Shown: piece after piece, positions 1,525 to 25,656 of the stretch | Layout: each line of letters begins with the position of its first letter | How positions within the stretch are numbered: position 1 is the first letter of the stretch | Assembly: GCF_001027285.1 (NCBI RefSeq) | Contig: NZ_CP011509.1 | Span: forward strand, 11,122,501 to 11,186,500 | Length of the DNA stretch: 64,000 bases | DNA from: Archangium gephyra | GTDB lineage: Bacteria; Myxococcota; Myxococcia; Myxococcales; Myxococcaceae | Reading direction: 5' to 3' | Translations under genes and position numbers: made by a program | The notes under the pieces: generated by a model | The model's input: only the letters and a program-made list of their open reading frames with translations | Database searches by the model: none | Told to the model about the DNA's origin: nothing

Positions 1525-1625
1525 AAGCAGCCAGGCCAGGGCCCGGGGCCGCCGTGTCCGCTCGGAAATATTTCGTCATCCCACCGAAGCGCGCGGTTAA
1601 TAACCGGTGGGCATCTTCTACAGTG

Positions 1626-1704
1626 CGACCCGGGAGCAAGCGTCCAACCGTCCCTGAATGGTCAGGCGGTGAGACATCGTCCCCCTCCAAGTGCTCCCGG
1701 GTCG
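1626..1704. promoter_or_regulatory. 13-bp perfect inverted repeat in divergent promoter region
   Basis: CGACCCGGGAGCA at 1626-1638 is the exact reverse complement of TGCTCCCGGGTCG at 1692-1704, with 53 bp between the arms. It sits between the divergent DUF3616 gene and the response-regulator gene. A spacing of about five helical turns between arms would suit looping by a dimeric regulator, possibly the adjacent response regulator. Regulatory function is inferred only. Confidence 0.5.
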
Positions 1705-1761
1705 TATCTTCTATCGCTGAGCCCCTCGGGGCGGACGGCCAGCGGGAGGAGAGAGACGCGC

Positions 1762-2490
1762 ATGGAACCGACGACACACTCCCCCACGGACGAAGGAACC
1801 ATCCAGGTGTTGCTGGTGGAGGACGACGAGCGTCTGGCCCGGCTCACCAGCCGCTACCTCCAGGAGCACGGCATCATCGTCACCATCGCCCGCACCGGCC
1901 CCGAGGGACTGGCCGAGGCGAGCCGCCATGCCTACGACGTCCTGCTGTTGGATCTCATGCTCCCCGGGCGGGATGGGATGGAGGTGTGCCGCGAGCTGCG
2001 CACGCGCAGTGATGTCCCCATCATCATGGTGACGGCACGCGGCGAGGAGGCCGACCGGGTGCTCGGCCTGGAGTCGGGCGCGGACGACTATCTCGCCAAG
2101 CCCTACTCCTCGCGCGAGCTGCTCGCGCGCATCCGCGCCCAGGTGCGCCGGGCTCGCGGACGCACCGGTCCATCCTCCCAACCCATCCAGGCGGGCAAGC
2201 TGTCGCTGGATCCCCGCAGCCTCAGCGCCACCCTGGACGGCAAGGTGCTGCCGCTGACCTCGTACGAGTTCGCGCTGCTGCGCGTGCTGGCCGAGCGCGC
2301 CGGACGGGTGCTCAGCCGCGAGCAGCTCCTGGACCTGGTGAAGGGCAACGCGGACGAGGTGTTCGACCGCTCCGTGGACGTGCACATCTTCCGCATCCGC
2401 CAGAAGATCGAAGAGGATCCGCGCAACCCGAAGCTGCTCAAGACGGTGCGCGGCGCGGGCTACCTGCTCGCCACTGGTGACGAGACATGA
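1762..2490 (+). CDS. OmpR/PhoB-family response regulator
   Basis: A 242-residue two-component response regulator. Residues ~12-125 form the receiver domain, with acidic VEDDE, the phosphoacceptor Asp in LLLDLMLPG, the conserved Thr in MVTARG and the Lys in LAKPYSSREL. Residues ~145-240 form the OmpR-type winged helix (LTSYEFALLRVLAERAGRVLS, then VDVHIFRIRQKIEEDP and VRGAGYLL). The ATG is preceded by a strong purine-rich site (GGGAGGAGAG), which favours it over longer in-frame starts. Its stop codon overlaps the kinase start (ATGA). The downstream MacAB/TolC-type genes are a plausible target. Confidence 0.93.
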   Translation: MEPTTHSPTDEGTIQVLLVEDDERLARLTSRYLQEHGIIVTIARTGPEGLAEASRHAYDVLLLDLMLPGRDGMEVCRELRTRSDVPIIMVTARGEEADRVLGLESGADDYLAKPYSSRELLARIRAQVRRARGRTGPSSQPIQAGKLSLDPRSLSATLDGKVLPLTSYEFALLRVLAERAGRVLSREQLLDLVKGNADEVFDRSVDVHIFRIRQKIEEDPRNPKLLKTVRGAGYLLATGDET

Positions 2491-3875: not shown

Positions 3876-3909
3876 GACTCGCGTCTAGCGGGGGGTGCTA
3901 TAACAACTC

Positions 3910-4491
3910 ATGTCCCTATCAGCGGAAGAGCTGCTTTCCATAGTTCGGAACTATTTCCGTCCGGACAAGGACTTCAACTACAGGCCGGAAAGCAGTCCCG
4001 AGCATGAGCGGTTCTCGGAGCAATGGGAGCGAGCACTCGAGCGGATGGACCAATGGCGGGCGTTCCTGCGAGAGCTCAGAGGAGCGCTACCTGACTTCGA
4101 TATCAGAAACGTCACGGCGCCATGTGACTCCTGTTTCCGCTGCGCTACGTATCCGAAGGAGAAAACCCGGCCGATAACGAGTAGCTGGTCCGTCGTCGGC
4201 TGTCTCAGCATCCTGGCGCCTGTCTATACAGTGTATGGAGTACACTGCACCTACACATACACCGACAAAGGCCGGGATCTGAGCGAGGAGGTCTTTCTCT
4301 ATTCGCTTCCACCCGAGATGCAGGGACCCGCATCCATCATCGCCAGGGGAATCGAGGCGACCTTCGGGGCCGAGGCCCTTCCTCGTGAGATCGCGGAAAC
4401 TCGCATCCCGCTCATCGTGGAGCCGCAGGAGCCGCCCGAGACCACCCTGTTTCACGCCCTGTTCATCAGTGAGCCCGAGAAGATCCCCTGA
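3910..4491 (+). CDS. Hypothetical protein, lower-GC orphan
   Basis: A 193-residue soluble protein with no signal peptide. The N-terminal ~60 residues are charged and helical (EHERFSEQWERALERMDQWRAFLREL). A cysteine pair of the form CDSCFRC is near residue 74-80, followed by a beta-rich middle with YGVHCTYTYTDKG and a C-terminal acidic tail. Base composition is visibly less GC-rich than that of its neighbours, and third positions are less G/C-biased, which suggests transfer. It separates the two-component system from the efflux genes. I do not recognise the family; it has the feel of the many short immunity-like orphans of myxobacteria, but this is a guess. Confidence 0.7.
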   Translation: MSLSAEELLSIVRNYFRPDKDFNYRPESSPEHERFSEQWERALERMDQWRAFLRELRGALPDFDIRNVTAPCDSCFRCATYPKEKTRPITSSWSVVGCLSILAPVYTVYGVHCTYTYTDKGRDLSEEVFLYSLPPEMQGPASIIARGIEATFGAEALPREIAETRIPLIVEPQEPPETTLFHALFISEPEKIP

Positions 4492-10311: not shown

Positions 10312-10328
10312 GGCCTGAAGCTCAGGCC
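10312..10328. terminator. Compact hairpin between convergent genes
   Basis: GGCCTGA-AGC-TCAGGCC is a perfect 7-bp stem with a 3-nt loop. It sits between the convergent secreted-hydrolase and transporter genes and contains the transporter stop codon, so it could end transcription from either side. Confidence 0.5.
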
Positions 10329-11716
10329 ACCTCGCGCCGCTCGCCGCTCCCCGCGGCTCCTTCAGAAGGGGCCGTGGGGGCCGGTTCCGAGAGGTGCCCG
10401 CGGAACGTCTCTGCGGAGAGGTAGACGGAGACGAGGGTAACGAGCGCCAGGCCCACCATGTAGAGCGACACGGGCCAGGGCTTGCCGCCGGACTGGGACA
10501 GCAGGAAGGTGGCGGTGAGGGGCGACAGGCCACCGGCGAACACGGAGGCGAGCTGATAGCCCAGCGAGGCGCCGCTGTAGCGCACGCGCGTGCCGAAGAG
10601 CTCCGAGAAGAAGCTGGCCTGAGGCCCGTACATGGCCGCGTGGGCGATGATGCCCAGCGAGATGGCCACCACGATGAGGGCCGTGGAGCGGGTATCGACG
10701 AGCCAGAAGAAGGGGAAGGCGAGCAGCGCGCAGCCCAGGGCACCGCCGAGGTAGACGGGGCGGCGCCCCACCACGTCCGACAGGGCCCCGAAGGCGGGAA
10801 TGGCCACCAGGTGCACGGTGGTGGCCGCGAGCACGCCATTGAGCATGGTGGACTTCTCCAGCTTCAGCTGCTCGGTGCCGTAGGTGAGGACGAACGTGGT
10901 GACGATGTAGAAGAAGCCGTTCTCCGCGAAGCGCGCCCCCATGGCGAGGAGGATCTGCCGCGGGTAGGTGCGCAGCACCTCGAGGATGGGGAGCTTCTCC
11001 GGAGCGGCGCTCTGGGCCTTGGAGGCCTGGTGGGCGGCCTGCTGCGCGCGGAAGGCGGGGGACTCGGCGACGCTGACGCGGATGAAGACGCCAATGCCGA
11101 TGAGCACCGCGCTGAAGAGGAAGGGCACGCGCCAGCCCCACGAGATGAACTGCTCCTCGGGCAGGCGGGAGAAGAGGGAGAACACGGCGTTGGCCACCAG
11201 CAGGCCCGCGGGCGCGCCCATCTGCGGCCAGCTCCCGTAGAAGCCACGCCGGTTCGGGGGAGCGTGCTCCACGGCCATCAGCACCGCGCCGCCCCACTCT
11301 CCTCCCAGGCCGAAGCCCTGGAGGATGCGCAGCAGCACCAGCAGGATGGGCGCCCCCACGCCGATGGTCTCGTACGTGGGCAGCAGGCCGATGGCGAACG
11401 TGGCCAGGCCCATGATCATCAGCGTGGCGCTGAGCATGGACTTGCGCCCGAGCTTGTCGCCGAAGTGGCCGAAGATGATGCCGCCGAGTGGCCGGGCCAC
11501 GAAGCCCACCGCGAAGGTGGCGAACGCGGCCAGCGTGCCCATCAACGGATCGAAGGACGGGAAGAAGAGGCGGTTGAAGATGAGCGCCGCCGCCGTCCCG
11601 TACAGGAAGAAGTCGTACCACTCCACGGCGGTGCCGATGAAGCTCGCGGCGGCCACCTTCCAGATGTTCGTGTGCTGGGCCTGCTCGGGCGCCTGGGAGG
11701 CGTTGGGTACCGTCAC
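10322..11716 (-). CDS. MFS transporter, metabolite:H+ symporter (MHS) family
   Basis: A 464-residue, 12-TM permease of the ShiA/ProP-like MHS group. Characteristic pieces are FIGTAVEWYDFFLYGTAAAL in TM1, FARPLGG-like VGFVARPLGGIIFGHFGD with the following GRK loop, and LRILQGFGLGGEWGGAVLM. The family imports organic acids and zwitterions by proton symport. It is the last gene of a minus-strand set with 3-hydroxybutyrate dehydrogenase, a porin-like protein and a lipase-like esterase, so import of 3-hydroxybutyrate or short oligomers is the most likely job. The gap to the upstream dehydrogenase gene is about 39 bp. Confidence 0.85.
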   Translation of the reverse strand: MTVPNASQAPEQAQHTNIWKVAAASFIGTAVEWYDFFLYGTAAALIFNRLFFPSFDPLMGTLAAFATFAVGFVARPLGGIIFGHFGDKLGRKSMLSATLMIMGLATFAIGLLPTYETIGVGAPILLVLLRILQGFGLGGEWGGAVLMAVEHAPPNRRGFYGSWPQMGAPAGLLVANAVFSLFSRLPEEQFISWGWRVPFLFSAVLIGIGVFIRVSVAESPAFRAQQAAHQASKAQSAAPEKLPILEVLRTYPRQILLAMGARFAENGFFYIVTTFVLTYGTEQLKLEKSTMLNGVLAATTVHLVAIPAFGALSDVVGRRPVYLGGALGCALLAFPFFWLVDTRSTALIVVAISLGIIAHAAMYGPQASFFSELFGTRVRYSGASLGYQLASVFAGGLSPLTATFLLSQSGGKPWPVSLYMVGLALVTLVSVYLSAETFRGHLSEPAPTAPSEGAAGSGERREVA

Positions 11717-11755: not shown

Positions 11756-12526
11756 TCAGCGGGCCGTCCAGCCGCAATCCATCACCTGGGCGGCCCCGGT
11801 GATGCCGCCCGCGGCCTCCGAGCACAGGAAGGACACGTACGCGGCCACCTCGCTCGGCTCCAGCAGGCGCTTCACCGCCGCCGGGGCCAGCATGACGCGC
11901 TCGATGACCTCCGTCTCCGTCATGCCGTGCACGCGGGCCTGGTCGGCGATCTGCTTCTCCACCAGCGGCGTGCGCACGTAGCTGGGGCAGATGGCGTTGA
12001 CCGTGACGCCCTTGTCCGCGGCCTCCAGCGCCACCGTCTTCGTCAGCCCCATGAGGCCGTGCTTGGCGGAGACGTAGGCGGACTTGTACGGCGAGGCCAC
12101 CAGCCCGTGCAGCGAGGAGACGTTGATGATGCGTCCCCACTTGCGCGCGTACATCAGCGGCAGGGCGTGCTTCGTCAACACGAAGGGCCCCACCAGCATG
12201 ATGCGGATCATCTGCTCCCAGCGCTCCTCCGGGAACTCCTCCACCGGAGACACGTGCTGGAGCCCGGCGTTGTTCACCAGGATGTCGAGCCGGTCCCATT
12301 CCTTCTGGGCCCGGGCCACCAGGGCCTTGCACTCCTCGCGCGAGGACACATCGGCCCGCTGCGCGACAGCGCCCGGAATGGCCGCGGCCACCGCGCGCGC
12401 GCCGGCCTCGTCCAGGTCCGACACCAGCACCCGGGCGCCGCGCGCCGCCAGATCCTCGGCCACCGCCCGGCCGATTCCACTCGCCGCGCCCGTCACGAGC
12501 GCGGTCCTTCCCGTCAGCTCTCCCAT
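11756..12526 (-). CDS. bdhA: D-3-hydroxybutyrate dehydrogenase
   Basis: A 256-residue short-chain dehydrogenase of the usual length. The NAD site is TGAASGIGRAVAE near residue 12, the structural motif is NNAGLQHVSPVEEFPEERW, and the catalytic site is Ser in VSSLHG with Y-x-x-x-K in YVSAKHG. The QHVSPVEEFP and NAICPSYVRTPLV segments are characteristic of 3-hydroxybutyrate dehydrogenases. It would oxidise D-3-hydroxybutyrate to acetoacetate in the cytoplasm. The second of two nearby ATGs was chosen because the AGAGGG site is better spaced for it. It lies 12 bp after the porin-like gene in the same orientation. Confidence 0.9.
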   Translation of the reverse strand: MGELTGRTALVTGAASGIGRAVAEDLAARGARVLVSDLDEAGARAVAAAIPGAVAQRADVSSREECKALVARAQKEWDRLDILVNNAGLQHVSPVEEFPEERWEQMIRIMLVGPFVLTKHALPLMYARKWGRIINVSSLHGLVASPYKSAYVSAKHGLMGLTKTVALEAADKGVTVNAICPSYVRTPLVEKQIADQARVHGMTETEVIERVMLAPAAVKRLLEPSEVAAYVSFLCSEAAGGITGAAQVMDCGWTAR

Positions 12527-12537
12527 GGACATCCCTC

Positions 12538-13950
12538 TCAGAGAATCATGCGCAGCGTGAGGAAGCCCGACAGGTCGCGCTCCTTCAGCTCCGGCTTGCC
12601 CTCGATGTTGCGCGCGTAGGTGGCCACGCGCGCACCCAGCGCCACCTGGTCGAACATCCACCACGTCGCGCCCACGTTGAAGTAGGTCAGGGCCGTGTTG
12701 GTGACGGGCTCGCTGGCGGGCGTGTCACCGGTGCGGGGAACGAAGGAGGGCGTGTGGTCCGCCACGCGCACGAAGTTGAAGCCCACGCCCGAGCGGCCGA
12801 AGAGGAAGACGTCCAGGCCACCCGACAGGGTGAGCGCGTCGAAGGGCGTCTGCAGCAGCTGGTTGCTGTAGCCCGCGACCGAGTTGACGACGTCGTTCTG
12901 CACGCGCGCCACGTTGAAGAAGGGCGTCACCTCCACGGGCAGCGCGGGCACCATGCCCTTGAGCTTGAGCTTCACGCCGCCGCGCAGGTTGTAGCCATCG
13001 AGGGGCGGATCCTGCGTGGAGGTGGCCTGGTAGTTGATGCTGAAGACCTGGGCCATGGCCTTGGCCTCGAACCAGGGGTGCTCGTAGGAGATAGAGGGGC
13101 TGATGACGCGGAAGTGGATGTCGTCATCCGGCTGGCCGTTGCGGAAGTTGCCCAGGGGCCGCTCCCAGAAGCGGCTGTTGCCGCCGAAGGAGCCACCCAC
13201 CATGAAGGAGGCCGAGGTGCTCAGCGGGTTGGCCTCGGTGTAGCTCAGGCCGGCGGTGAGGCCCCAGCGCGAGTAGCGCGCCTGCACGCCCTGGCCGCGG
13301 TTGAAGCCGCTGTAGAGCAGCGGATCTCGCGTGTACTTGTCCGCCAGGAGCACGTCGCCCATGTGCGCGGAGAAGTAGTCCACGCTGGCCGGGTCCAGGA
13401 TGATGCCGGCCTCCACCGTGGCGCCCCACCGCTGCAGGCGCAGCACCTGGTCGCGCACGGACATGGAGGCCGTGCCCTCCCAGATGCCCGAGCCGTGGCT
13501 GCGGATGTTGCGCTCGAACTCGCTGCGGAAGGTGACGTAGGGCCCCAGCCGTCCCTCGGCGCCGAAGCGCGCGAGGGCCACCGTGGTGATGCGGCTCTCC
13601 TTCTCCGGGTTGGGGTTGACCAGCAGGTTCTCCGACTGGAGACCGCCCGCGATGGAGAGCACCGGGCTGATGAAGTACGTGTCGCTGCCCAGGGCGAAGA
13701 GGGGCCGGGTCGCGGGCGTCGGAGCACCCAGCACCAGCGCCGCCGGGTCCTGCTTCGCCTCGGCATCCGGCTTCGCGGGGGCCTGCGGCTCGAGGGCGGG
13801 CGCGGCGGGAGCGGCCTGGGCGACGGGCGCGTCGGCGGACGCCGGAGCGGCGGCCTCGGAGCTCTGGGCGTGGGCGGAAGCCGTCAGCAGGGCGGACGCC
13901 AGCGTGCACACGAGCGCCACGCGAGACGCGGTGGGGAGGGAGGAAGTCAT
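12538..13950 (-). CDS. Outer-membrane porin-like beta-barrel protein
   Basis: A 470-residue exported protein. The signal peptide ends at ASAHAQ; a ~50-residue Ala/Pro linker precedes a domain of alternating short strands (YFISPVLSIAGGLQSEN, RFGAEGRLGPYVTFRSEFE, ending in FLTLRMIL with a terminal aromatic/hydrophobic pattern). The MGDVLLADKYTRDPLLYSGFNRGQGVQ region resembles phosphate-selective-porin-type barrels, but I cannot name the family. Between an esterase gene and a 3-hydroxybutyrate dehydrogenase gene, it probably lets ester-hydrolysis products cross the outer membrane. Confidence 0.75.
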   Translation of the reverse strand: MTSSLPTASRVALVCTLASALLTASAHAQSSEAAAPASADAPVAQAAPAAPALEPQAPAKPDAEAKQDPAALVLGAPTPATRPLFALGSDTYFISPVLSIAGGLQSENLLVNPNPEKESRITTVALARFGAEGRLGPYVTFRSEFERNIRSHGSGIWEGTASMSVRDQVLRLQRWGATVEAGIILDPASVDYFSAHMGDVLLADKYTRDPLLYSGFNRGQGVQARYSRWGLTAGLSYTEANPLSTSASFMVGGSFGGNSRFWERPLGNFRNGQPDDDIHFRVISPSISYEHPWFEAKAMAQVFSINYQATSTQDPPLDGYNLRGGVKLKLKGMVPALPVEVTPFFNVARVQNDVVNSVAGYSNQLLQTPFDALTLSGGLDVFLFGRSGVGFNFVRVADHTPSFVPRTGDTPASEPVTNTALTYFNVGATWWMFDQVALGARVATYARNIEGKPELKERDLSGFLTLRMIL

Positions 13951-13994
13951 GAGGGGAGAACTCTCTTGGGGGGGGCTGCTCTCCAGAAGGGGAA

Positions 13995-14031
13995 CCGCCG
14001 CCCGCGCGGCAGCCACGGGCGCGGGCGGCGG
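13995..14031 (-). other. Strong intercistronic hairpin
   Basis: A perfect 13-bp GC-only stem (CCGCCGCCCGCGC/GCGCGGGCGGCGG, 11-nt loop) lies between the esterase-like gene and the porin-like gene. No T-run follows, so it may be an attenuating or mRNA-stabilising element that lowers expression of the downstream porin, dehydrogenase and transporter relative to the secreted enzyme. Confidence 0.55.
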
Positions 14032-14054: not shown

Positions 14055-15488
14055 CTACTTCGCCAGATAGCCCATGACGAGCTTCAGGCCCGCCGACGAG
14101 CGCAGGGAGCCGAAGTGGTTGGCGATGAAGCCCTTGTTGAAGTACCCGCTGGTGTCGTAGTCGTTGAGCGTCGTCAGCTTGTTCACCGTGCAGTCCGGCA
14201 GGTCGATGCGCGAGGCGGACTCGGACACGTAGAAGTCCTGGTAGTTGGCGCCCTGCTCGATGTCCGTCATGGTGACGGTGTAGTACTTCACCACGTTGCC
14301 GCCGCACTGGCCCGTCTTGCCGAAGGCGTAGTCACCGTCCGCGCACGGCGTGGCGAACAGATCGCGAGGGCCGTTGAGCGGCTTGTGGAAGTACGTCTGC
14401 GTGTAGTTGGAGCGGCTGCCCATCTCGCAAACGATGGTGCCACGCATGGTGGGGTTGGCCGTGCACAGCCCGCTGTCGTAGGTGGACACGCCGTGGTTGG
14501 CGCCCGAGCCGAGGATGACGTGGCTCACCCGCGTGAAGGGGTTGACGGACTCCGGCTTGCCGTCCACGTACTCCACGTACAGCCGGCGCAGCGCATCGCG
14601 CACCACCGTCACGCCCAGCGAGTGGCCGACGAGGGCCACCTTGCGGTTGGGGTTGTTGAGCATCACCGCCTTGACGAGGGACTGGAGGATGGGCGTGGAC
14701 CAGCCGTGGTCGATGTTGCCCGCCGCGTTCTCCGTGGTGCTGTTGCCGGTGGGGTCCACGGTGGCGATCAGGTCCGTGCGGAAGTCCACGGCGATGACGC
14801 GGTAGCGATCGGCGACCAGCGCCTCGGCCAGCTGCGCGCGCGCCTCGGTGTCCGGGTTGAACTGCACCTTCTCGAAGGCGGAGTTGATGGTGGTGCCCGC
14901 CGGCAGGAGGAACTTCTCCCAGGAGTGCGGCCGGGTGGAGTTGCCGTGCACCAGGATGACGATGGGCTTGGAGGTGTCCTCGTTGTTCTGGACGTACTCC
15001 TTGGCGGCGCAGTGATAGCCGGGGATGCGGGCCACGTCCCCGTCGATGTGGCCGGTCGCCTTGTTGGGGCCGCCGAAGACGCCGTCGCCGGTCCACTTGC
15101 CGTCGTTGTTGCCGTCCGTATAGGGCGTGGAGCCGGCCTTGTTGTTCTTGTCGTAGTAGAGGTTCTCGATGGAGCAGCCGGGGTGGTTGCTCAGCGGACG
15201 GTACTTGCCGTCGTACTGCTTGTACGTCGCGGGCGTCTGCCGCTCCGTGAGCCCGGGATCCGCCATCTCGGGCGCGTCGTGGATGGACCAGTTGGCCACG
15301 TCCACTCCAGCGGCCACCAGCTCGTCGTGACGCGCGGAGATCTGCTTCTTGCACGCCTCCACCGACACGACATCCTCCTCACCGTCTCCATTGCCGTTGC
15401 CATTGCCGTTGGGCTTCTCGCACGCCAGCAGCGCGCACGCCGCGAGACCGGTCGCATAGAAACGGAGGGAGAACCTGGACATCCTCAT
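14055..15488 (-). CDS. Secreted lipase-like esterase, candidate PHB/PHA depolymerase
   Basis: A 477-residue lipoprotein with lipobox LLAC near residue 23, a Gly/Asn linker, and an alpha/beta-hydrolase domain. The oxyanion loop is VILVHGNS, and the nucleophile elbow GHSLG has the Ser near residue 289. A conserved ANHGVS segment follows, with several Cys. The general plan recalls lipase-box depolymerases such as PhaZ7 of Paucimonas, but homology cannot be proved by eye. The ATG has AGGAG at good spacing. It heads the operon with porin-like, 3-hydroxybutyrate dehydrogenase and MHS transporter genes, and diverges from a clear PHB depolymerase across an operator-rich region. Confidence 0.75.
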   Translation of the reverse strand: MRMSRFSLRFYATGLAACALLACEKPNGNGNGNGDGEEDVVSVEACKKQISARHDELVAAGVDVANWSIHDAPEMADPGLTERQTPATYKQYDGKYRPLSNHPGCSIENLYYDKNNKAGSTPYTDGNNDGKWTGDGVFGGPNKATGHIDGDVARIPGYHCAAKEYVQNNEDTSKPIVILVHGNSTRPHSWEKFLLPAGTTINSAFEKVQFNPDTEARAQLAEALVADRYRVIAVDFRTDLIATVDPTGNSTTENAAGNIDHGWSTPILQSLVKAVMLNNPNRKVALVGHSLGVTVVRDALRRLYVEYVDGKPESVNPFTRVSHVILGSGANHGVSTYDSGLCTANPTMRGTIVCEMGSRSNYTQTYFHKPLNGPRDLFATPCADGDYAFGKTGQCGGNVVKYYTVTMTDIEQGANYQDFYVSESASRIDLPDCTVNKLTTLNDYDTSGYFNKGFIANHFGSLRSSAGLKLVMGYLAK

Positions 15489-15588
15489 GTGTTGCTCCTG
15501 TGGGAAGACGAGAGGCGCTGGGGGGACTGCATGGGTCGGGTGGCGCCTGCTCGAGCCGGCCGTCGGGGCGGCGGCGGCATACTACCGT

Positions 15589-15723
15589 AACATGAAGCCG
15601 GACTCATGTTTGTATGATGCCCGGTTCAGGTTGGCCCCCACTGTCCGTCCTTGACGTCCCGCGTCATACTCGACGGTGCAACCTGATGCCGGGTTCATGT
15701 CTTCATGATGCTAGCTTCATGTT
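15589..15723. promoter_or_regulatory. Four 22-bp operator-like sites in two tandem pairs
   Basis: Each site has two 7-bp half-sites around an 8-bp spacer. Site A (15589-15610) is AACATGA-N8-TCATGTT, a perfect palindrome. B (15611-15632) is TGTATGA-N8-TCAGGTT; C (15680-15701) is AACCTGA-N8-TCATGTC; D (15702-15723) is TTCATGA-N8-TCATGTT. Sites A/B and C/D abut head to tail, and the pairs start 91 bp apart. The spacers are also alike (TGCCCGGT in B, TGCCGGGT in C). A TAGTAT hexamer lies beside A on the esterase side, and TTGACA (15733-15738) lies just past D on the depolymerase side. This is probably the control region for both divergent transcripts. Confidence 0.65.
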
Positions 15724-15842
15724 CGCAAGGGTTTGACATTGCGCGTCACGAACGGCGGGATTCCCTTACACAAATCCGCATAAGGGGTATTCAAGGGATT
15801 GTGTTAAGGCATTACCTCCCCTTTCCAGGGAGGACCCCCATC

Positions 15843-18752
15843 ATGATGAAGCGTCGTTTCGCAGGAGCCGTGGGAGCCATTCTCACGCTGGCGGTGCTCG
15901 GGTGCGAGGGCATGCCGCCCCAAGAGGAGGCAGCGCCCCTGGAGCCACTGGGCGTGACGCGACATGCGCTCACGGAGGTGACGGGCTTTGGCACCAATCC
16001 CGGCGCGCTGAAGATGTGGAAGCACGTCCCCGCGAGCATGCCCGCCAACGCGCCGCTGGTGGTGGCGCTGCACGGCTGTACCCAGGCGGCCAGCGCCTAC
16101 GCCGCCACCGGCTGGAGCGCCCTGGCGGACCAGCTCAAGTTCTACGTGATCTACCCGGAGCAACCGAAGGACAACAACGCGAACATCTGCTTCAACTGGT
16201 TCGAGCCGGGTGACCTCGCGCGCGGCCAGGGCGAGGCGCTGTCCATCAAGCAGATGGTGGACAAGATGAAGGCGGACCACTCCATCGACGGGCGCCGCGT
16301 CTTCGTCACCGGCCTGTCGGCGGGAGCCGCGATGACGCTCGTGATGGCCGCCACCTACCCGGACGTCTTCGCCGGGGCCGCCCCCATGGCCGGCGTCCCG
16401 TACAAGTGCGCGACCTCGATGAATGATGCCTTCACCTGCATGAGCCCGGGCGTGGACAAGACGCCCACGGCCTGGGGGGACCTCGTGCGCAACGCCTACC
16501 CCGGCTACACGGGCCCCTATCCGAAGATCTCCCTCTGGCACGGCACGGGCGACTACGTGGTGAAGAACACCAACCAGAACGAGGCCGTGGAGCAGTGGAC
16601 GGCGGTGCACGGCCTCGACCTGACGGCGGACGTCAATGACACGGTCGCCGGCTACCCCCACAAGGGCTACAAGGACGCCGCGGGCAACGTGCTGGTGGAG
16701 ACGTACGCCATCACCGGCATGGGACATGGCACGCCCATCGACCCGGCCACGAAGTTCCCCGGCGGCGCGGCGTGCGGCACGGCGGGCGCGTACATCCTGG
16801 ACACGGACATCTGCTCCACCTGGTACGTGGCGAAGTTCTTCGGGCTCGACAACTCCGACGCGGTGCCGCCCACCGTGAGCCTCTCCTCGCCGGCCAACGG
16901 CGCCACCCTGAGCGGCACGGTGCTGGTGACGGCCAGCGCCACGGACAACGTCGGCGTCGCCAAGGTGGAGTTCTCCATCGACAACACGCTGGTGGGCACC
17001 GATACGGCGTCCCCCTTCGAGTACAGCTGGAACACCGCGGCGGCCACCAATGGCAGCCACAAGCTGGTGGCCCGGGCCTATGACGCCGCGGGCAACACCA
17101 CCACCTCCAGCACCGTCTCCGTCACCGTGACGGGCGGCATCTCCGACACCACGGCGCCCACTGTCGCCATCACCTTCCCCACCGCGAGCGCCACCGTGGC
17201 CGGCGCCGTGGACATCGCCGTCACCGCCTCCGACGACACTGGCGTCACCAAGGTGGAGTTCCTCATCGACGGGACCGTGGTGGGCCAGGGCGTCGCGTCG
17301 CTGGCGGCCGGGCCTTACACGTACAACTGGAACACCACCTCCTACGCCACGGGCCTCCACAACCTCCAGGCGCGGGCCTACGACGCCGCGGGCAACACGG
17401 CGACCTCGGCCACGGTGTCCGTGACGGTGGACCAGAACTCCGTGCGCTTCACCGAGCGCTTCTCCAACGCCGGCCCCGACAACGCGGGCTGGAGCATCAC
17501 CGAGTGGGCGCTCGACGCCAGCGATCAGACCGGCGTCACCGGCAGCCAGTCCCTCCTGGGCTCCGCCACGCCTGCCTTCAACACCGTCACCCGCACCGCG
17601 AGCGTGAGCGTGACGCTCACCTCCAACCCCCGGCTCACCTACTGGCGCAAGCTGGACCTCTCGGGTGCCAACACCTCGGCCTCGGCCAGCTTCAAGGTCG
17701 TGGTCAACAACGGCACCGACAACGTGGTGGACTCGGTCACCAAGACGGGCATGGGCACCGTCACCGAGGCCAACTGGACGCAGCGGGCCGACATCGACCT
17801 GTCGGCGTATGCCAACCGGACCGTCATCCTGAAGTTCATCGTCACGGCGACGGACACCGGCTCGAGCGTCAGCCGCGCCAAGGCGTGGGTGGACAGCATC
17901 TCCGTGGGCCCGCCGACGGCCTCGTCCGACACCACGCCCCCCACGGTGAACATCACCGCTCCGGCCAACGCAGCCACCGTCAGTGGCACCGTAGACGTGA
18001 CGGCGAGCGCCTCGGATGCCGTGGGCGTGAAGAAGGTCGAGTTCTACCTCGACGGCTCGCTGGCGGACACTGACACGGCGGCCCCGTACGTCTTCACCTG
18101 GAACACGGCGGGCGTGGCCAACGGCGGCCACTCGCTCATGGCCAAGGCCTATGACGCCGCCAACAACGTGAGCACGGACAACGACACCTCGGTGACGGTG
18201 AGCAACACCAGCGGCGGGACGACGACCGTGTCCTTCAGCAGCATCGCCGCGGATGACGGGTACGTGAAGGCGAACGCGGATGGAACCCTGCCCGCGGTGG
18301 GCACCATCAGCACCCCGGCCATCGGCAAGGGCACGGACGCGAAGCTCAACCGGGCCTTCTTCTCCTTCGACACCTCGGCGCTGCCGGACACCGCCACCAT
18401 CGTGCGCGCCTCGCTCAAGGTGACGCTGTCCTCCGCGGGAGGAGATCCCTGGGCCGACCCCGCGGCCGGCAACACGCTCGTCATCGACCTGAAGAACGGG
18501 GTGTTCGGAACCACCGCCGCCATGGAGACCACCGACTACGCCGCGGCCGCCACCGCCTCGGCCGTCTCGGAGCTCATCAAGTTCACCACTGGCACCCAGA
18601 GCTCGGCCGACTTCAACGCCGCGGGCCTCGCCTCCGTCAACAGGACGGGCAAGACGCAGGCCCGGCTCCAGTTCAAGACGAACCCCTCGGGCACCTCGTA
18701 CCTCTTCCTCACCGAGGGCACCGGCGCCACGTTGACGGTGGAGTACAAGTAG
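15843..18752 (+). CDS. Extracellular PHB depolymerase, modular
   Basis: A 969-residue lipoprotein or secreted enzyme (VLGC near residue 20). Residues ~55-335 are a PHB-depolymerase esterase domain: oxyanion loop VALHGCTQ (~75), lipase box GLSAG with Ser ~159, LWHGTGD with the catalytic Asp ~233 and GMGHGTP with the His ~294. Then come two bacterial Ig-like domains (each PPTV/APTV...VGVAKVEF...YDAAGNT), a ~150-residue jelly-roll-like module, a third Ig-like domain, and a C-terminal DNRLRE-like domain (FFSFDTSALPDTATIVRASLKV). The add-ons presumably bind the polymer. GGGAGGA precedes the start. It diverges from the esterase/porin/dehydrogenase operon. Confidence 0.9.
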   Translation: MMKRRFAGAVGAILTLAVLGCEGMPPQEEAAPLEPLGVTRHALTEVTGFGTNPGALKMWKHVPASMPANAPLVVALHGCTQAASAYAATGWSALADQLKFYVIYPEQPKDNNANICFNWFEPGDLARGQGEALSIKQMVDKMKADHSIDGRRVFVTGLSAGAAMTLVMAATYPDVFAGAAPMAGVPYKCATSMNDAFTCMSPGVDKTPTAWGDLVRNAYPGYTGPYPKISLWHGTGDYVVKNTNQNEAVEQWTAVHGLDLTADVNDTVAGYPHKGYKDAAGNVLVETYAITGMGHGTPIDPATKFPGGAACGTAGAYILDTDICSTWYVAKFFGLDNSDAVPPTVSLSSPANGATLSGTVLVTASATDNVGVAKVEFSIDNTLVGTDTASPFEYSWNTAAATNGSHKLVARAYDAAGNTTTSSTVSVTVTGGISDTTAPTVAITFPTASATVAGAVDIAVTASDDTGVTKVEFLIDGTVVGQGVASLAAGPYTYNWNTTSYATGLHNLQARAYDAAGNTATSATVSVTVDQNSVRFTERFSNAGPDNAGWSITEWALDASDQTGVTGSQSLLGSATPAFNTVTRTASVSVTLTSNPRLTYWRKLDLSGANTSASASFKVVVNNGTDNVVDSVTKTGMGTVTEANWTQRADIDLSAYANRTVILKFIVTATDTGSSVSRAKAWVDSISVGPPTASSDTTPPTVNITAPANAATVSGTVDVTASASDAVGVKKVEFYLDGSLADTDTAAPYVFTWNTAGVANGGHSLMAKAYDAANNVSTDNDTSVTVSNTSGGTTTVSFSSIAADDGYVKANADGTLPAVGTISTPAIGKGTDAKLNRAFFSFDTSALPDTATIVRASLKVTLSSAGGDPWADPAAGNTLVIDLKNGVFGTTAAMETTDYAAAATASAVSELIKFTTGTQSSADFNAAGLASVNRTGKTQARLQFKTNPSGTSYLFLTEGTGATLTVEYK

Positions 18753-18768: not shown

Positions 18769-19620
18769 TCACCCGCGTCCCTTCCCGCGCGGGACCAGGT
18801 GTTGCTCGAGCCGTTCGAGCAGCGCCAGTTCCGCGCGGGAGCGCTCGGCCAGGGGTGCGAAGAGCAGGCGCGCGCGCATGCCCATCCCCTCCGTGAGCTC
18901 GAAACGCCGGAGGTCATCCGGCAACCCCAGCAGCACCTCCGCCAGCGGACGCACCCGGTGGAGCTGGTAGGAGCCGAGCGACTCCAGCCGCCGCACCACC
19001 TGCTCCTCGGAAGCACCCTCCGCCAGGGCCTCTCCCGCCGCCGCCTCGAGCGCGAGGCTGGAGCGCACCCGCTCCTCCAGGTCCGCGAGCACCGCCGCCG
19101 TGTTGCGCCGGGCGTTGCGCAGGACGCGTGCGGGGTCCAGCACCTGGGCCACGCGACGCCGGGCCGCCGTGCCGAGCACCGTCCGCCCCTGCACGCGGGC
19201 GAGGATCGCCTTCAGGTAGCTGGCCGCGAAGCACGCCACGAAGAGGGCCTCGTCCAACGGCGCCCGCTCCAACCCGGCGAGCGACTCCGCGAGGGAGACC
19301 AGCCCCGCCTCCGTCAGCACGTAGCGCTGGCCCCGGGGTGCCTTCCGGCTCCTCGCCCCCGCCAGGGGCTCGGCCCACCCGCTCCGGCACAACCGCGCCA
19401 GGGAGCGGCGCACCTGCGTGAGGTCGAGGTCCTGCGAGGGCCTCGTGACGTCATGCTCCACCCAGTTGGTGAAGAGCAGGAAGAAGAAGCGCACATCGGA
19501 GGCCCGGAAGCCTCCCGCGCTCGCTCCAGCCCCATGCGCGGCCAGCAGTGCCGCCTGGATGAAGGTGGCCTGCGTCGTCACGTGCCCGAGGCGCTCGGCG
19601 AGCGGCGGAGTCCGGCCCAT
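18769..19620 (-). CDS. Predicted winged-helix transcriptional regulator
   Basis: A 283-residue cytoplasmic protein. Residues ~25-120 look like a winged helix: FRASDVRFFFLLFTNWVEHD, then LTQVRRSLARLCRSGWAEPL and the wing RYVLTEAGLVSLAESL. The C-terminal ~160 residues are helical and Arg/Leu-rich and may form a ligand or dimerisation domain. The layout recalls PaaX-type regulators, but no family is certain. It is convergent with the depolymerase gene (16-bp gap) and divergent from the fatty-acid hydroxylase gene, with a perfect inverted repeat between. It could regulate either the hydroxylase or the PHB genes. Confidence 0.65.
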   Translation of the reverse strand: MGRTPPLAERLGHVTTQATFIQAALLAAHGAGASAGGFRASDVRFFFLLFTNWVEHDVTRPSQDLDLTQVRRSLARLCRSGWAEPLAGARSRKAPRGQRYVLTEAGLVSLAESLAGLERAPLDEALFVACFAASYLKAILARVQGRTVLGTAARRRVAQVLDPARVLRNARRNTAAVLADLEERVRSSLALEAAAGEALAEGASEEQVVRRLESLGSYQLHRVRPLAEVLLGLPDDLRRFELTEGMGMRARLLFAPLAERSRAELALLERLEQHLVPRGKGRG

Positions 19621-20464: not shown

Positions 20465-20643
20465 AGCCCGTCCGCTCCTCTGCTCTCCAGGCGACAGCAC
20501 GAGCCCCCGTGCCCATACCCGGGGGGATGCGGAAGCGAGCCCGCCTGCTCATTTGAAGCACCCTACCCTCTGGCGCATGAGCCGCCTCGCCCCCCTTGGC
20601 ACCGCACTCGGCGGTCCCAAGCTTGTCGATGACGCGCCGACCC

Positions 20644-20660
20644 CACCACCATAGGTGGTG
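20644..20660 (+). promoter_or_regulatory. Perfect hairpin/operator just upstream of the hybrid kinase
   Basis: CACCACC-ATA-GGTGGTG is a perfect 7-bp inverted repeat about 22 bp before the kinase ATG and immediately before its GA-rich ribosome site. It could be an operator or an RNA hairpin limiting translation. Confidence 0.5.
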
Positions 20661-20682
20661 CGACCAGAGGGGGAGGGCATTG

Positions 20683-23600
20683 ATGGCGGAGGGCTACGAA
20701 CAGGCTGGACCCTCTCTGGAAGGGGCGCATCCCGGCAGGCGGCTGGGCAACCGCTTTGAGTTGACCCAACGCATCAAGCAGGGCCGTGGCATCACCACGT
20801 GGCTCGGGGTGGACCTGCATACGGGGGCCCGGCTCGTCATCAAGACGACATCCGCCCTCTCCCTGGTCTCCACCGCCCGCCAGCGCCTGGAGCACGAGGC
20901 GGGTGTGCTGCGCTCCCTGCACAGCCCCTACCTCATGCCCGTCCTGCATTTCGGGACGGGGGGAGAGCTGCTCTTCCTGGTGACGCCCTTCGTGCCCGGG
21001 GTGTCGCTCCAGGAGCGGCTCGCCAGTGGCACCCTCTCCGTCCCCGAGGCGCTCATCGTGGGCCAGTGTGTGCTGGCCGCCCTCGCCGAGACGCACGCCC
21101 ACGGCATCCTCCACCGGGATGTGAAGCCCTCCAACATCATCGTCGAGGGCCGCCCCACCCTCACCCGCGCCACCCTGGTGGACTTCGGTCTGGCGCGCAG
21201 TGAACGGTTGGACCCGTCCCTGCGCGACCTGCCCGTGGGCACCGCGCGCTACCTCTCGCCCGAGCAGGCCGGACTGCTCAACCGTCCGGTGGAGGCCACT
21301 TCGGACCTGTACGCGCTGGGGGCCGTGCTCTTCGAGGCGCTCGCCGGCCACCCGGCCTTCGACGGCACCTCCGTGGGCGAGGTGCTGCGCCAGCACCTCA
21401 CCACCCGGCCGCGGCTGCGCACCACCGGCGTGGAGGTGCCCCGCGCGCTGGAGGAGGTCGTCTCCCGTCTGTTGCAGACGGATCCGCAGGATCGCTACCA
21501 GTCCGCCGAGTCCGCGCGCGAGGACCTGCGCGCCATCGAGGCGGCCCTGGCCCGGGGCGAGCAGGACCCGGAGCTGGTGGCGGGCGCCCATGACATGCGC
21601 CACAGCCTCACCGAGCCCTCCTTCGTGGGCCGGCACGAGGAGCTGGCGCTGCTGGAGCGGGAGCTGGAGCGCTCCCGCACGGAGCCGGGGCGGCTGCTGG
21701 TGGTGGAGGCCGAGAGCGGCGGAGGCAAGAGCCGGCTGCTGGAGGAGTTCGCCACGCGCGCGCGCCAGCACCGGGCCTGGCTGCTGCAGGGCCAGGCCGT
21801 GGCCCAGTCCGCGCAGCGGCCCTTCCAGCTCTTCGCGGACGTGGCCTCGGGCATCGCCTCGGCGGCGCTGGAGCGGCCCGCGCTGGCGGAGCTGCTGCGT
21901 GAGCGGTTGCAGGAGCAGGCCGCCTCGGTGTGCACGGTGCTGCCGCAGCTGCAGCCGGTGCTGCGTCCCGCGCAGCAGGGCCTGGGCCCCGAGTCCCTGG
22001 GCGAGAGCCGCGGCATCTGGGCCCTCACCACGCTGCTGGGCGCGCTGGGCACGGAGGCGGAGCCCGCGGTGGTGCTGCTCGAGGACTGTCAGTGGGCGGA
22101 TGAGCCGACGCTCCGGTCACTGGAGAGCTGGCAGCAGGCGCGCCGCAGCGTGGGCGGGCACGTGCTGATCATCGTGTCCTTCCGCAGCGAGGAGGTGGGC
22201 CCCGGGCACGTGCTGCGGCGGCTCAACCCGGCGGCGCACCTGCGGCTGACGGCCTTCGGGCCCGCGGACGTGGCGCGCATGTTGGAGTCCATGGCCGGCA
22301 CGCTGCCGCGCGAGGCCATGGAGCTGGTGGTGCGCCTGTCCGAGGGCAACCCCTTCATGGCCTCGGCGGTGCTGCACGGACTGGTGGAGGACGGCGCACT
22401 GGTGCCGGGCCCGAGGGGTTGGCAGGTGGAACCCGAGGCCATGGCGCATGTGCGCTCCTCGAGACAGGCGGCCTCCTTCCTGGTGCGCCGGCTGAAGCTG
22501 CTGCCGCCGGAGTCCCTGCGCCTGCTGTCGGTGGGCGCGGTGCTGGGCAAGAACTTCGACCTGGAGCGGGTGGCGAGCCTGTCGGGCACGCCGCGCGAGC
22601 GGGTGGTGGCGGGGCTGGTGGAGCCTCGGCGCCGGCACATGCTGTGGGAGGGCAGTGGCGGCCGCTACACCTTCGTCCACGACAAGCTGCGCGAGGCGCT
22701 GCTGAGCCTGCTCAAGCCCGAGGAGCGCCGGGAGCTGCACCGGCTGGCGGCGCGCGCCATCGCGGCCAACCCGCCGGCGGATCCCTTCGAGCTCGCCTAC
22801 CACTTCGACGCCGCGGGCGAGTACACCCAGGCCCTGCCCTACGCGCTGGTGGCCGCCGAGCGGGCCCGGCAGCAGTTCGCCCTGGAGACGGCGGAGCACA
22901 ACTACCGCATCGCCGAGCGGGGCGCGGCCGGGGCCGACCCGGGCATCCGCTTCCGCATCAGCGCCGGCTTCGGCGACGTGCTCATGCTGCGCGGCCGCTA
23001 TGACGCCGCCCAGCAGCAGCTCTCGCTCGCCCAGTCGCTCGCCCATGACCGGTTGGATCAAGCTCGCACGCTGGCCAAGCTGGGAGAGCTGGCCTTCCGG
23101 CGCGGCAACGTGGACGAAGGCAACGCGGCCATGGAGCAGGCCCTCCGGCTGCTCGGCCGCTTCATGCCCCGCTCATCCGCCGCCCTGAGCCTGGCGGCCC
23201 TCTGGGAGGTCGGCGTCCAGGCGGGCCATACCCTGCTGCCACGGCTCTGGCTGGCACGCCGTCCCCTCGAGGAGAGCGAGGAGGATCTGCTGGCCGTCCA
23301 TATCTACAGCCGGCTGGCCTACAGCTACTGGTACCTGCGCGGCCGCATGGCCGTTCTCTGGGCGCACCTGCGAGACCTCAACATCGCCGAGCGCTACCCG
23401 CCCACCCCCGAGCTGGCCCAGGCCTACTCGGAGCACTCTCCCGCGATGACCACCCTGCCCTGGTACCGCCGGGCCAACGCCTACTCGGAAAAGTCCCTGG
23501 CCATGCGCCGGCAGATGGGTGACGTGTGGGGACAAGGACAGACATTGCATTTCTACGCCCTGGCCCTCTACGCGGAGAGCCGCTTCGAGGAGAGCATCGA

Positions 23601-25656
23601 GAAATGCCGCGAGGCGGTGCGGCTGCTGGACCGGACGGGAGACCGGTGGGAGGTCAACAACGCCACCTTCAACACCATCATGTGCCTGTACCGGCAGGGG
23701 AAGTTGAAGGAGGCGCTGGAGGCCAGCCAGCGGCTGCACGGCGAGGCCCTCGCCATTGGAGACCGGTACGCGGTGCGGCTGGCGCTGGAGGCCTGGGGCA
23801 AGGCCTCCGGAGGCCGCATTCCCCGCGGGCTGCTCGAGGGGGAGATCTCCAACCCGGAGGCGGATCCGCAGTCGCACTCGGGCGTGCTCCAGGCGGAGGC
23901 CATCCGCCAGTTGCGCGAGGGGGACGCCGAGGGCGCGGTGGCCACGCTGGAGGAGGCACAGCGCATCGCCGAGGCGGCCCACCTGCATTCGGAGTACGTG
24001 TCGCCCATTCCGGGCTGGCTGGCCACCGCGCTGCGCCAGCGCGTCGAGCAGGTGTCCTCGCTGGCGCCGCATGAGCGCAAGGCGCTGCTGAAGCGGGCCG
24101 AGCACGTGGCCCGGCGGGCGCACGACGTGGCGAACACCTACCGCAACAACCTCCCGCATGCCCTGCGCGAGCGGGCCCTGCTGGCGGCCATGTCCGGCCA
24201 TGCGCGCCGCGCGCGCCGCTGGCTGGAGCAGAGCCTGAGCGTGGCCAACGAGCTGGGCATGCGCCATGAGCGCGCCCAGACGCTGCTGGCGCGTGGGCAG
24301 GTGGGCCGGGCCCTCGGCTGGCCCGGAGCCGCCGCGGACGTCGAGACGGCCACCCGCGAGCTGCAGGAGCTGGAGCAGGGGCTGGGCCAGGAGGGCCCCG
24401 GGAGCTCGGAGCGCTCGGACACCCTGTCCCTGGCGGACCGCTTCCCCCGCGTGCTGGACGCGGGCCGCCGCATCGCCTCCGCGCTCACCCGCGAGGCGGT
24501 GTTCGACGCCGCGCGCCGCTCCATGATGGAGCTGCTGCGCCCGGAGCACTGCGTGGTGTTCGACCCGGAGGCGCTGCTGCCCGAGGACGAGCTGGCGGCG
24601 GCGGGCGTGGGCCGGACCGCCATCGCCCGGACGCTGGAGACGGGGCGTCCGGCGGTGATGGGCCAGGGCATGCCCGGCGGGGTGAGCGAGAGCATGGAGC
24701 TGCTGGGGGTGCGCTCGCTGCTGTGCGCCCCCATCCAGGTGCGCGGCAAGACGGTGGCGTGTGTGTGCGTCAGCCACCGGCAGGTGGGCGAGCTCTTCGG
24801 CGAGGACGAGGAGCGGCTGGCCTCCTTCGTCTGCATCCTGGCGGGCGCCGCCCTGGAGAACGCCGAGGGTTTCGAGCGCATGGCCGCCCTCTCCGAGGAG
24901 CGGGGCCGGCTCTACCGCGAGGAGCAGGAGGCGGTGCGGCGCCGCGACGACTTCCTCTCCATCGCCGCGCACGAGCTGAAGACACCCCTCACCTCGCTGC
25001 AGCTCCACCTCCAGGGCCTCATGTCGCAGCTGCGCCAGGGGCTGGAGCGGCTGCCCCCGGAGCGGCTCGGCGCCAAGCTGGAGTCCGCCAACCTCCAGAC
25101 GCAGCGGCTGGGCAAGCTGGTGAACGAGCTGCTGGACATCTCGCGCATCGCCCAGGGGCAGATGCTGGGCAAGCTCGAGGACGTGGACCTGGTGCAGCTG
25201 GTGCGCGGGGTGGTGGAGCGCTCCCGCGAGGCGCTCGCCCGCGCCGAGTGCGAGCTGCGGCTGAACCTGTCCCCCTCCCTGGTGGGCCACTGGGACGCCA
25301 TGCGGCTGGAGCAGGTGGTGGTCAACCTGCTCACCAACGCGACGAAGTATGGCGCGGGCCGGCCCATCGAAATCACCGTCGAGGGCGACGCCACCCAGGC
25401 GCGCCTGCGCGTGCGGGACGAGGGCATCGGCATCGCCGAGGAGGACGCGGCGCGCATCTTCGAGCGCTTCGAGCGCGCCGTGTCCGTGCGCCACTACGGC
25501 GGCTTCGGCATCGGGCTGTGGATCGTCCGGGAGATCGTCCAGGCGCTCGGCGGTACCATCGAGGTGGAGAGCGCCCTGGGCAAGGGCGCCACCTTCACCG
25601 TCACGCTGCCCCGCCACGGCCCCGAGGAGCCGCGCGAGGCGCATGAGACGCACTAG
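20683..25656 (+). CDS. Ser/Thr kinase - AAA ATPase - TPR - GAF - histidine kinase fusion
   Basis: A 1657-residue soluble hybrid kinase. Residues ~20-285 are a Hanks-type kinase with the Lys in RLVIK, HRDVKPSN (~144) and DFGLA (~167); the glycine loop (GRGITT) is atypical. Residues ~300-600 form an orc1/cdc6-like AAA domain (GRHEELALLE, Walker A GGGKSR ~347, Walker B LLEDCQWAD ~465). A long TPR region (~690-1150) follows, then GAF (~1245-1400), HisKA with AAHELKTP (His ~1429), and HATPase (NLLTNATKYG, GFGIGLWI). This HSTK-type architecture is known in myxobacteria and cyanobacteria. No receiver domain or partner regulator is adjacent. The ATG follows a GAGGGGGAGGG site. Confidence 0.93.
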   Translation: MAEGYEQAGPSLEGAHPGRRLGNRFELTQRIKQGRGITTWLGVDLHTGARLVIKTTSALSLVSTARQRLEHEAGVLRSLHSPYLMPVLHFGTGGELLFLVTPFVPGVSLQERLASGTLSVPEALIVGQCVLAALAETHAHGILHRDVKPSNIIVEGRPTLTRATLVDFGLARSERLDPSLRDLPVGTARYLSPEQAGLLNRPVEATSDLYALGAVLFEALAGHPAFDGTSVGEVLRQHLTTRPRLRTTGVEVPRALEEVVSRLLQTDPQDRYQSAESAREDLRAIEAALARGEQDPELVAGAHDMRHSLTEPSFVGRHEELALLERELERSRTEPGRLLVVEAESGGGKSRLLEEFATRARQHRAWLLQGQAVAQSAQRPFQLFADVASGIASAALERPALAELLRERLQEQAASVCTVLPQLQPVLRPAQQGLGPESLGESRGIWALTTLLGALGTEAEPAVVLLEDCQWADEPTLRSLESWQQARRSVGGHVLIIVSFRSEEVGPGHVLRRLNPAAHLRLTAFGPADVARMLESMAGTLPREAMELVVRLSEGNPFMASAVLHGLVEDGALVPGPRGWQVEPEAMAHVRSSRQAASFLVRRLKLLPPESLRLLSVGAVLGKNFDLERVASLSGTPRERVVAGLVEPRRRHMLWEGSGGRYTFVHDKLREALLSLLKPEERRELHRLAARAIAANPPADPFELAYHFDAAGEYTQALPYALVAAERARQQFALETAEHNYRIAERGAAGADPGIRFRISAGFGDVLMLRGRYDAAQQQLSLAQSLAHDRLDQARTLAKLGELAFRRGNVDEGNAAMEQALRLLGRFMPRSSAALSLAALWEVGVQAGHTLLPRLWLARRPLEESEEDLLAVHIYSRLAYSYWYLRGRMAVLWAHLRDLNIAERYPPTPELAQAYSEHSPAMTTLPWYRRANAYSEKSLAMRRQMGDVWGQGQTLHFYALALYAESRFEESIEKCREAVRLLDRTGDRWEVNNATFNTIMCLYRQGKLKEALEASQRLHGEALAIGDRYAVRLALEAWGKASGGRIPRGLLEGEISNPEADPQSHSGVLQAEAIRQLREGDAEGAVATLEEAQRIAEAAHLHSEYVSPIPGWLATALRQRVEQVSSLAPHERKALLKRAEHVARRAHDVANTYRNNLPHALRERALLAAMSGHARRARRWLEQSLSVANELGMRHERAQTLLARGQVGRALGWPGAAADVETATRELQELEQGLGQEGPGSSERSDTLSLADRFPRVLDAGRRIASALTREAVFDAARRSMMELLRPEHCVVFDPEALLPEDELAAAGVGRTAIARTLETGRPAVMGQGMPGGVSESMELLGVRSLLCAPIQVRGKTVACVCVSHRQVGELFGEDEERLASFVCILAGAALENAEGFERMAALSEERGRLYREEQEAVRRRDDFLSIAAHELKTPLTSLQLHLQGLMSQLRQGLERLPPERLGAKLESANLQTQRLGKLVNELLDISRIAQGQMLGKLEDVDLVQLVRGVVERSREALARAECELRLNLSPSLVGHWDAMRLEQVVVNLLTNATKYGAGRPIEITVEGDATQARLRVRDEGIGIAEEDAARIFERFERAVSVRHYGGFGIGLWIVREIVQALGGTIEVESALGKGATFTVTLPRHGPEEPREAHETH

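Follow-up and report, generated by a model that had tools for sequence, protein, structure and literature searches.

Paired dyad sites at a putative PHB-utilisation locus of Archangium gephyra and a candidate FadR-like TetR regulator

The described systems closest to the one considered here are TetR-family acyl-CoA regulators. FadR of Sulfolobus acidocaldarius (SaFadR) binds semi-palindromic sites in two stoichiometries; it represses clustered genes for lipases and beta-oxidation, and acyl-CoA releases it (PMC6449355). FadR of Bacillus subtilis (3WHB) and FadR of Thermus (3ANG; PMC5597230) are TetR-family acyl-CoA regulators of fatty-acid degradation, and FasR of Mycobacterium tuberculosis is characterised as a TetR-like sensor of long acyl-CoA (PMC7382501). 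In the open-access literature searched, no description was found of an acyl-CoA-type TetR protein controlling PHB depolymerases, subscription papers being mostly outside this coverage. A study of Sinorhizobium under Myxococcus predation treats PHB through the synthesis genes of the prey and is not relevant here (PMC10315480). The kind of regulator is already known; the regulon presented below and its link to PHB depolymerases appear new.

The analysed DNA, called the window, is a stretch of 64,000 nucleotides (G000:C1:11122501-11186500) in the 12.49-Mb single contig of its own genome, G000. The genes flanking the array are as follows, in window positions.

10322..11716, minus strand: MFS metabolite/H+ symporter (TIGR00883, 452.9 bits, cut-off 443.45), a candidate 3HB importer
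11756..12532, minus strand: 3-hydroxybutyrate dehydrogenase, start MSMGELTGR (TIGR01963, 355.7 bits, cut-off 307.05, scanned as 11756-12619)
12538..13950, minus strand: lipase-adjacent gene with the signal-peptide-like start MTSSLPTAS, possibly encoding an outer-membrane protein
14055..15488, minus strand: lipase-like alpha/beta hydrolase whose gene opens the leftward unit (Pfam Abhydrolase_6 26.4 versus 26.3, Lipase_2 23.9 versus 20.3)
15843..18752, plus strand: extracellular short-chain-length PHA (PHB) depolymerase with Ig-like domains (NF050058 336 versus 150, TIGR01840 272.1 versus 107.85; Pfam)

The gene families suggest a PHB-utilisation locus. The earlier note spoke of divergent depolymerases; this is right for the rightward gene, identified by NCBIfam model NF050058, but the leftward one encodes a lipase-like hydrolase, for which no NCBIfam model matched and no PDB sequence was found at E <= 0.01. 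The lipase-adjacent gene, scanned as 12538-14001, has no Pfam match; it has counterparts in relatives, where its neighbourhood with the lipase is kept. Further along the window, 20596-25656 encodes a large protein, by eye an apparent hybrid of Ser/Thr kinase, ATPase, GAF and histidine kinase, that is also found near the depolymerase in the genomes G005 and G034. The sequence CCTCCC-N7-GGGAGG at 15815-15833 could form a hairpin across the presumed ribosome-binding site of the depolymerase, and relatives keep most of it, but its folding was no better than that of shuffles in three of three sequences.

On reading the sequence, the array between the divergent genes consists of four 22-bp dyads in two abutting pairs, the starts of the pairs being 91 bp apart, exactly as first proposed. 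The ranks below refer to a matrix of TetR start-codon operators introduced further on, either symmetrised or as read.

15579..15584, minus strand: candidate -10 box TAGTAT of the putative lipase-side promoter, 4 bp from dyad 1
15589..15610, plus strand: dyad 1, AACATGAAGCCGGACTCATGTT, pair 1, nearer the lipase-like gene, rank 1
15611..15632, plus strand: dyad 2, TGTATGATGCCCGGTTCAGGTT, pair 1, abutting dyad 1, rank 4 symmetrised and 6 as read
15680..15701, plus strand: dyad 3, AACCTGATGCCGGGTTCATGTC, pair 2, on the depolymerase side, rank 2 symmetrised and 3 as read, an exact match to the core
15702..15723, plus strand: dyad 4, TTCATGATGCTAGCTTCATGTT, pair 2, abutting dyad 3, rank 3 symmetrised and 7 as read

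Counted by eye, dyads 1 to 4 have 0, 4, 2 and 2 mismatches to AACATGA-N8-TCATGTT. The supposedly perfect palindrome, dyad 1, has a perfect inverted repeat in its 7-bp arms, but not in its 8-bp spacer, and the spacer TGCC(C/G)GGT, believed to be shared, occurs in dyads 2 and 3, that is, in two sites out of four. A search with AACATGA-N8-TCATGTT at three mismatches finds three of the four sites (0.18 expected; three were reached in none of 100 shuffles) and misses dyad 2. In each of the five genomes of the genus with both genes, the candidate -10 box is either TAGTAT or TAGGAT. A good -35 box was not seen for it, and a consensus sigma-70 promoter scan of 15400-15900 yielded nothing. As for genome-wide specificity, the arms-only pattern with at most three mismatches performs at the chance level in G000 (61 matches versus 65 for the reversed pattern). 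With a model of the entire 44-bp pair, the window's two pairs are the only matches at E <= 1 in 12.5 Mb (150 of 3455 first-look candidates scored).

The intergenic region was matched in 10 of 96 genomes of the family: all six of the same genus, the window's included, G034, and three genomes with short stretches only. The latter (G045, G089 and G090, L047-L049) were set aside, as the matched query positions lie outside the dyads; the matrix scan gave no match in L047 and L049 and one weak distant match of 9.3 bits in L048. The earlier note would have counted a lack of conservation in related strains against the sites; all four dyads are conserved in G000, G002, G003, G004 and G006, and one pair each in G005, whose intergenic match spans 43 bases only, and in G034. 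Dyads 1 and 2 are present in all five same-genus genomes where both divergent genes lie side by side; the genome of G005 has no lipase match, and the counterpart of dyad 4 is found there upstream of the depolymerase.

Within the pairs, the abutting 22-bp offset is kept in 12 of 12 cases, and 25 of 44 columns are invariant in their alignment (A1), the 12 pairs being those picked up by an exploratory matrix. In the five four-dyad genomes, 74% of the dyad columns are invariant, versus 47% of the intergenic columns outside them; of 353 circular shifts of the dyad mask, only 4 reach equal invariance. The positions 15589 and 15680 begin a 47-nt direct repeat (repeat search; spacing 91, 74% identity) that makes up part of the array, and one might take the dyads for functionless relics of a duplicated spacer, retained through general conservation; given the excess of invariant columns and the constancy of the offset, we regard this as very unlikely. 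The conservation supports the assignment of the array as candidate regulator-binding sites. The constant abutting spacing points to cooperative dimers on one face of the helix, so that the cooperative pairs suggested earlier are probable, as judged from the alignment.

A required loop between the pairs finds no support. The pair-to-pair distances in the five two-pair genomes are 90, 91, 91, 91 and 93 bp, which at 10.5 bp per turn makes roughly 8.6 to 8.9 turns and no fixed integer, and lone pairs occur at four other places: at the depolymerase and at the 3HB dehydrogenase of G005, in G031 and in G034. Thus, a promoter may carry just one pair. The second G005 pair (at 1095763) and that of G031 were found by applying the 44-bp model to 16 genomes, where three other matches, at E between 0.1 and 1, are partial; in each genome 150 first-look candidates were scored out of about 1,100 to 4,400, so that diverged matches may be missed. 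The former precedes a relocated 3-hydroxybutyrate dehydrogenase gene, its product 91% identical to the window's, and the latter a gene with a depolymerase-like beginning. In G034 one pair occupies the gap between both divergent genes, hence the arrangement of one pair per promoter is not universal.

Beside each pair there is a second conserved motif, Box A, a dyad resembling TGACGC-N3-GCGTCA.

15651..15666: Box A copy 1, TTGACGTCCCGCGTCA, beside pair 1, 13 of 16 columns invariant in five genomes, repeat family D3
15733..15748: Box A copy 2, TTGACATTGCGCGTCA, beside pair 2, 14 of 16 columns invariant in five genomes

It also stands beside the pairs of G005, G034 and G031, and its conservation at least equals that of the dyads (pairwise identity 0.88 and 0.95, versus 0.86 and 0.84 for the dyads). 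In genus g19 and in G041 the distance from Box A to a single dyad is fixed, with 16 nt from TGACGC to TGAATC. Box A-like stretches are seen at other candidate regulon members, for example TGACGCAATGCGTTG between the dehydrogenase and TetR genes of G000 described below. A loose Box A pattern, TGACGCRNNRYRWYR, has 65 matches in G000 versus 26 for its reverse, and the surplus is comparable in the remaining genomes of g1 and g6 that were searched; elsewhere the counts are 64 versus 37 (G041), 58 versus 40 (G068), 39 versus 47 (G063) and 28 versus 24 (G027). Box A may represent a second regulatory input. Separately, near-identical sites TGACGCAGCGCAA(C/T)G were noted at G000:C1:11947207, 11949444, 11953695, 12083808 and 12085531, all on the minus strand and in two clusters.

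The best candidate for the regulator is encoded outside the window.

G000:C1:1008575-1009258: candidate TetR-family regulator (PF00440 TetR_N, 49.8 bits, cut-off 24)

Its gene is about 10.1 Mb from the array by coordinate, or 2.4 Mb if the contig is circular. It is referred to as TetR below. At E <= 1e-30, orthologues are present in 71 of the 96 genomes, and in 30 of the 30 examined a dyad overlaps the TetR ATG. The same holds for eight of ten further TetR regions, down to 56-57% identity (nine of the ten, all but L190, were read; one of the eight repeats G080, and L192 and L142 come from the same genome); in L191 (G011, 44% identity) the dyad is absent from the stretch read. The dyad operator at its own gene suggests autoregulation, as far as sequence can tell. 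In L188 (G094) and L189 (G092), the dyad at the start codon has extra TTCATG/CATGAA half-sites next to it, so that this genus may have an operator of several sites. The G000 gene has an acyl-CoA ligase and an alpha/beta hydrolase as neighbours, with a Lipase_2 gene on the other strand, and in G027 a ketoacyl synthase III gene lies downstream. ArgR-type paired boxes were also considered, on account of the two-turn pair spacing and the TGAA-N6-TTCA core, and dropped after the link to TetR emerged.

The link itself comes from a matrix built from 12 unique TetR start-codon operators, none of them from the window. When symmetrised, it places the window dyads at ranks 1-4 among all positions of the 64 kb (scores 28.3, 16.9, 8.4 and 6.8); as read, it ranks them 1, 3, 6 and 7, with three unrelated places interleaved. 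In 20 mononucleotide-shuffled windows the best scores of the symmetrised matrix averaged 3.3 with the maximum of 10.0, and the maximum of the matrix as read was 13.1. The scores of dyads 2 and 4 are below the best of the shuffled windows, so that the case for these two rests on placement and conservation rather than just on score.

The earlier note had proposed a different protein for gel-shift experiments, the winged-helix one encoded at 18769-19620, which has no Pfam or NCBIfam match. It adjoins the depolymerase gene in G000, and in G003 and G006 its orthologues lie no more than about 5 kb from the array. At E <= 1e-20, however, it was not found in G002 and G004, which have all four sites, nor in G005 and G034, which have pairs; overall, it was found in 24 of 96 genomes and is missing from 48 of the 72 with an exact core site (up to 25 candidates were scored per genome, so that diverged matches may be missed). 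On these searches, it is most unlikely that this protein binds the array.

The common core of the dyads is approximately TGAWGNNNGRTTCA. In G000 the exact core with outer A and T occurs at four places, while the reversed control gives none: at the start codon of TetR, roughly 100 bp ahead of the gene for a second PHB depolymerase, in the window array, and just before a TonB receptor gene. The second depolymerase, also secreted (NF050058, 309.1 bits), has upstream of its gene a TetR-type dyad at G000:C1:2875951-2875970 (L164:8952) and a TTTTGACGCGTCGCGG stretch. The lipase paralogue at 9983914 in G000 (L039) was rejected as a regulon member, having no above-threshold dyad in the stretch examined.

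Across the family, there are 268 exact core matches in the 71 TetR-positive genomes (reversed control 4) and 11 in the 25 TetR-negative ones (control 0). The core is present in 67 of 71 genomes of the former group versus 5 of 25 of the latter (Fisher p = 2e-12 with genomes treated as independent, the co-occurrence being confounded by phylogeny and genome size). The TetR-negative genomes with matches are G016 (3), G036 (1), G050 (4), G085 (2) and G086 (1). The TetR-positive ones lacking the exact core are G001, G051, G088 and G090; in the three read, that is, all but G090, a diverged dyad lies over the ATG.

In genus g19, single dyads with the same core stand upstream of the lipase orthologues and are often preceded by TGACGC at a fixed distance, and in G041 TetR is 10.6 kb from the lipase. 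A composite model, R2, gave full matches near lipases and partial ones at E from 0.04 to 0.7. Partial matches precede one short-chain dehydrogenase gene (MQLKDLK...) in G068 (0.043), G027 (0.135) and G077 (0.179), and in G000 (0.475) the match lies between the gene for the MQLKDLK dehydrogenase and a gene for a TetR-family regulator; for partial matches elsewhere, for example in G071, no link was evident. In G051, a single stretch of 10 kb contains an SDR (83% identical to the G000 MQLKDLK protein), a dyad, the lipase, an OMP-like gene, an MFS symporter, a 3HB dehydrogenase sharing 81% identity with that of the window, and TetR. An intermediate site, AAGATGATGCCTGATTCATGTC, precedes a hydrolase gene in G005 about 10 kb from the G005 TetR.

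One could suppose that the PHB array is bound by a different regulator whose specificity overlaps with that of TetR, and that TetR serves its own operator and the lipid cluster alone. The left arms do differ, being ACATGA at the PHB locus and AGTTGAAG at the G000 TetR operator, and Box A hints at a further DNA-binding protein working at the array. However, the matrix transfers between the loci, G051 unites the genes in a single cluster, the G005 site is intermediate in sequence, and G000 has one match to TetR at E <= 1e-30 (30 of 44 candidates scored). We thus consider a separate regulator quite unlikely.

The similarity of TetR to the FadR/SaFadR-like acyl-CoA regulators covers the whole protein, including the ligand domain. 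The nearest PDB sequence is SaFadR (6EL2/6EN8), with the profile E-value of 7.1e-43 (6el2, over profile positions 12-183; the next match has 3.3e-17), or 4.2e-30 with a single protein query. For the predicted model of TetR (mean pLDDT 83.3), SaFadR is also the best Foldseek match, with TM-scores by target of 0.87-0.92 in six of the seven listed chains and 0.75 in the remaining one, and fatty-acid regulators are among the next. The cut-offs of the curated NCBIfam FadR/FasR models were missed (NF053878, 54.6 versus 200; NF053731, 55.9 versus 330). Given the similarity to SaFadR and the genes in TetR neighbourhoods (acyl-CoA ligase, hydrolase, lipase, ketoacyl synthase III), the ligand is likely acyl-CoA, by analogy. 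The earlier note had put forward 3-hydroxybutyrate; homology favours acyl-CoA.

Taken together, it is probable that the array is a double operator of a FadR-like, acyl-CoA-sensing TetR repressor encoded elsewhere on the chromosome. The computed support comprises the sites, their conservation, the motif shared with the start codon of the regulator gene, the predicted fold and the co-occurrence. What we infer is that the protein binds, that it represses rather than activates, that binding is cooperative, and what the operons and the ligand are. One TetR dimer would occupy each 22-bp dyad, and an abutting pair would hold two dimers cooperatively on the same helix face. Pair 1, covering the promoter region next to the -10 box, would shut the leftward unit (the lipase-like hydrolase, the putative outer-membrane protein, 3-hydroxybutyrate dehydrogenase and possibly the symporter), and pair 2 the rightward PHB depolymerase; control of both divergent units, proposed earlier, is supported. 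Acyl-CoA arising from fat or polyester would release the repressor, and then the scavenging genes, the second PHB depolymerase, the TonB receptor and the TetR gene itself would be expressed.

Repression by occupancy is suggested by dyads lying over the TetR start codon, 4 bp from the lipase-side TAGTAT/TAGGAT, and, for the lipase of G051 and the TonB receptor of G000, between the presumed -10 box and the gene, these promoter positions being assigned by eye. Against this, as many as three dyads lie upstream of the presumed -10 box of the lipase promoter in g19, several of them accompanied by Box A, and this fits activation too. The same TetR might then act as an activator, or both ways, from pairs upstream of weak promoters, in line with the lack of a good -35 box on the lipase side and with the TetR-like FasR, described as an activator (PMC7382501). 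The dyads at the start codon and downstream of -10 boxes argue the other way, as does the closest relative, SaFadR, a repressor (PMC6449355); activation by TetR seems unlikely to us.

If repression by TetR is accepted, what was an orphan repeat becomes a regulon with a named candidate regulator in several genera of the family, and extracellular PHB degradation would be linked to an acyl-CoA-type sensor. A bolder and rather doubtful possibility is that one SaFadR-like TetR is the master switch coupling the breakdown of prey lipids and PHB in predatory myxobacteria, with composite operators shared with a Box A protein and two signals needed.

Among the known systems, FasR gives a fold match to TetR, at about 20% identity by fold alignment, and differs in being an activator and in controlling lipid biosynthesis (PMC7382501). 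FadR of B. subtilis and of Thermus are significant matches by both profile and fold, but their similarity to TetR is weaker than that of SaFadR; the Thermus operator is palindromic, and its consensus, TTRNACYNRGTNYAA, has no evident letters in common with the window motif (PMC5597230). SaFadR shares with the candidate the TetR fold and 31% identity by fold alignment, as well as a small number of sites in the genome, one of them at its own gene, the dyad form of the operators, and lipase and fatty-acid genes as targets. Its recognition-helix residues Gly48 and Tyr51 correspond to Gly56 and Tyr59 of TetR, whereas Asn37, a dimer-of-dimer contact, corresponds to alanine 45, that is, the contact is not kept. 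The SaFadR motif is 16 bp long and the second dimer is proposed to sit on an overlapping repeat, on the opposite face, whereas here 22-bp dyads abut at 22 bp. Finally, unlike that of SaFadR, the candidate regulon has PHB depolymerases and 3HB dehydrogenase among its targets.
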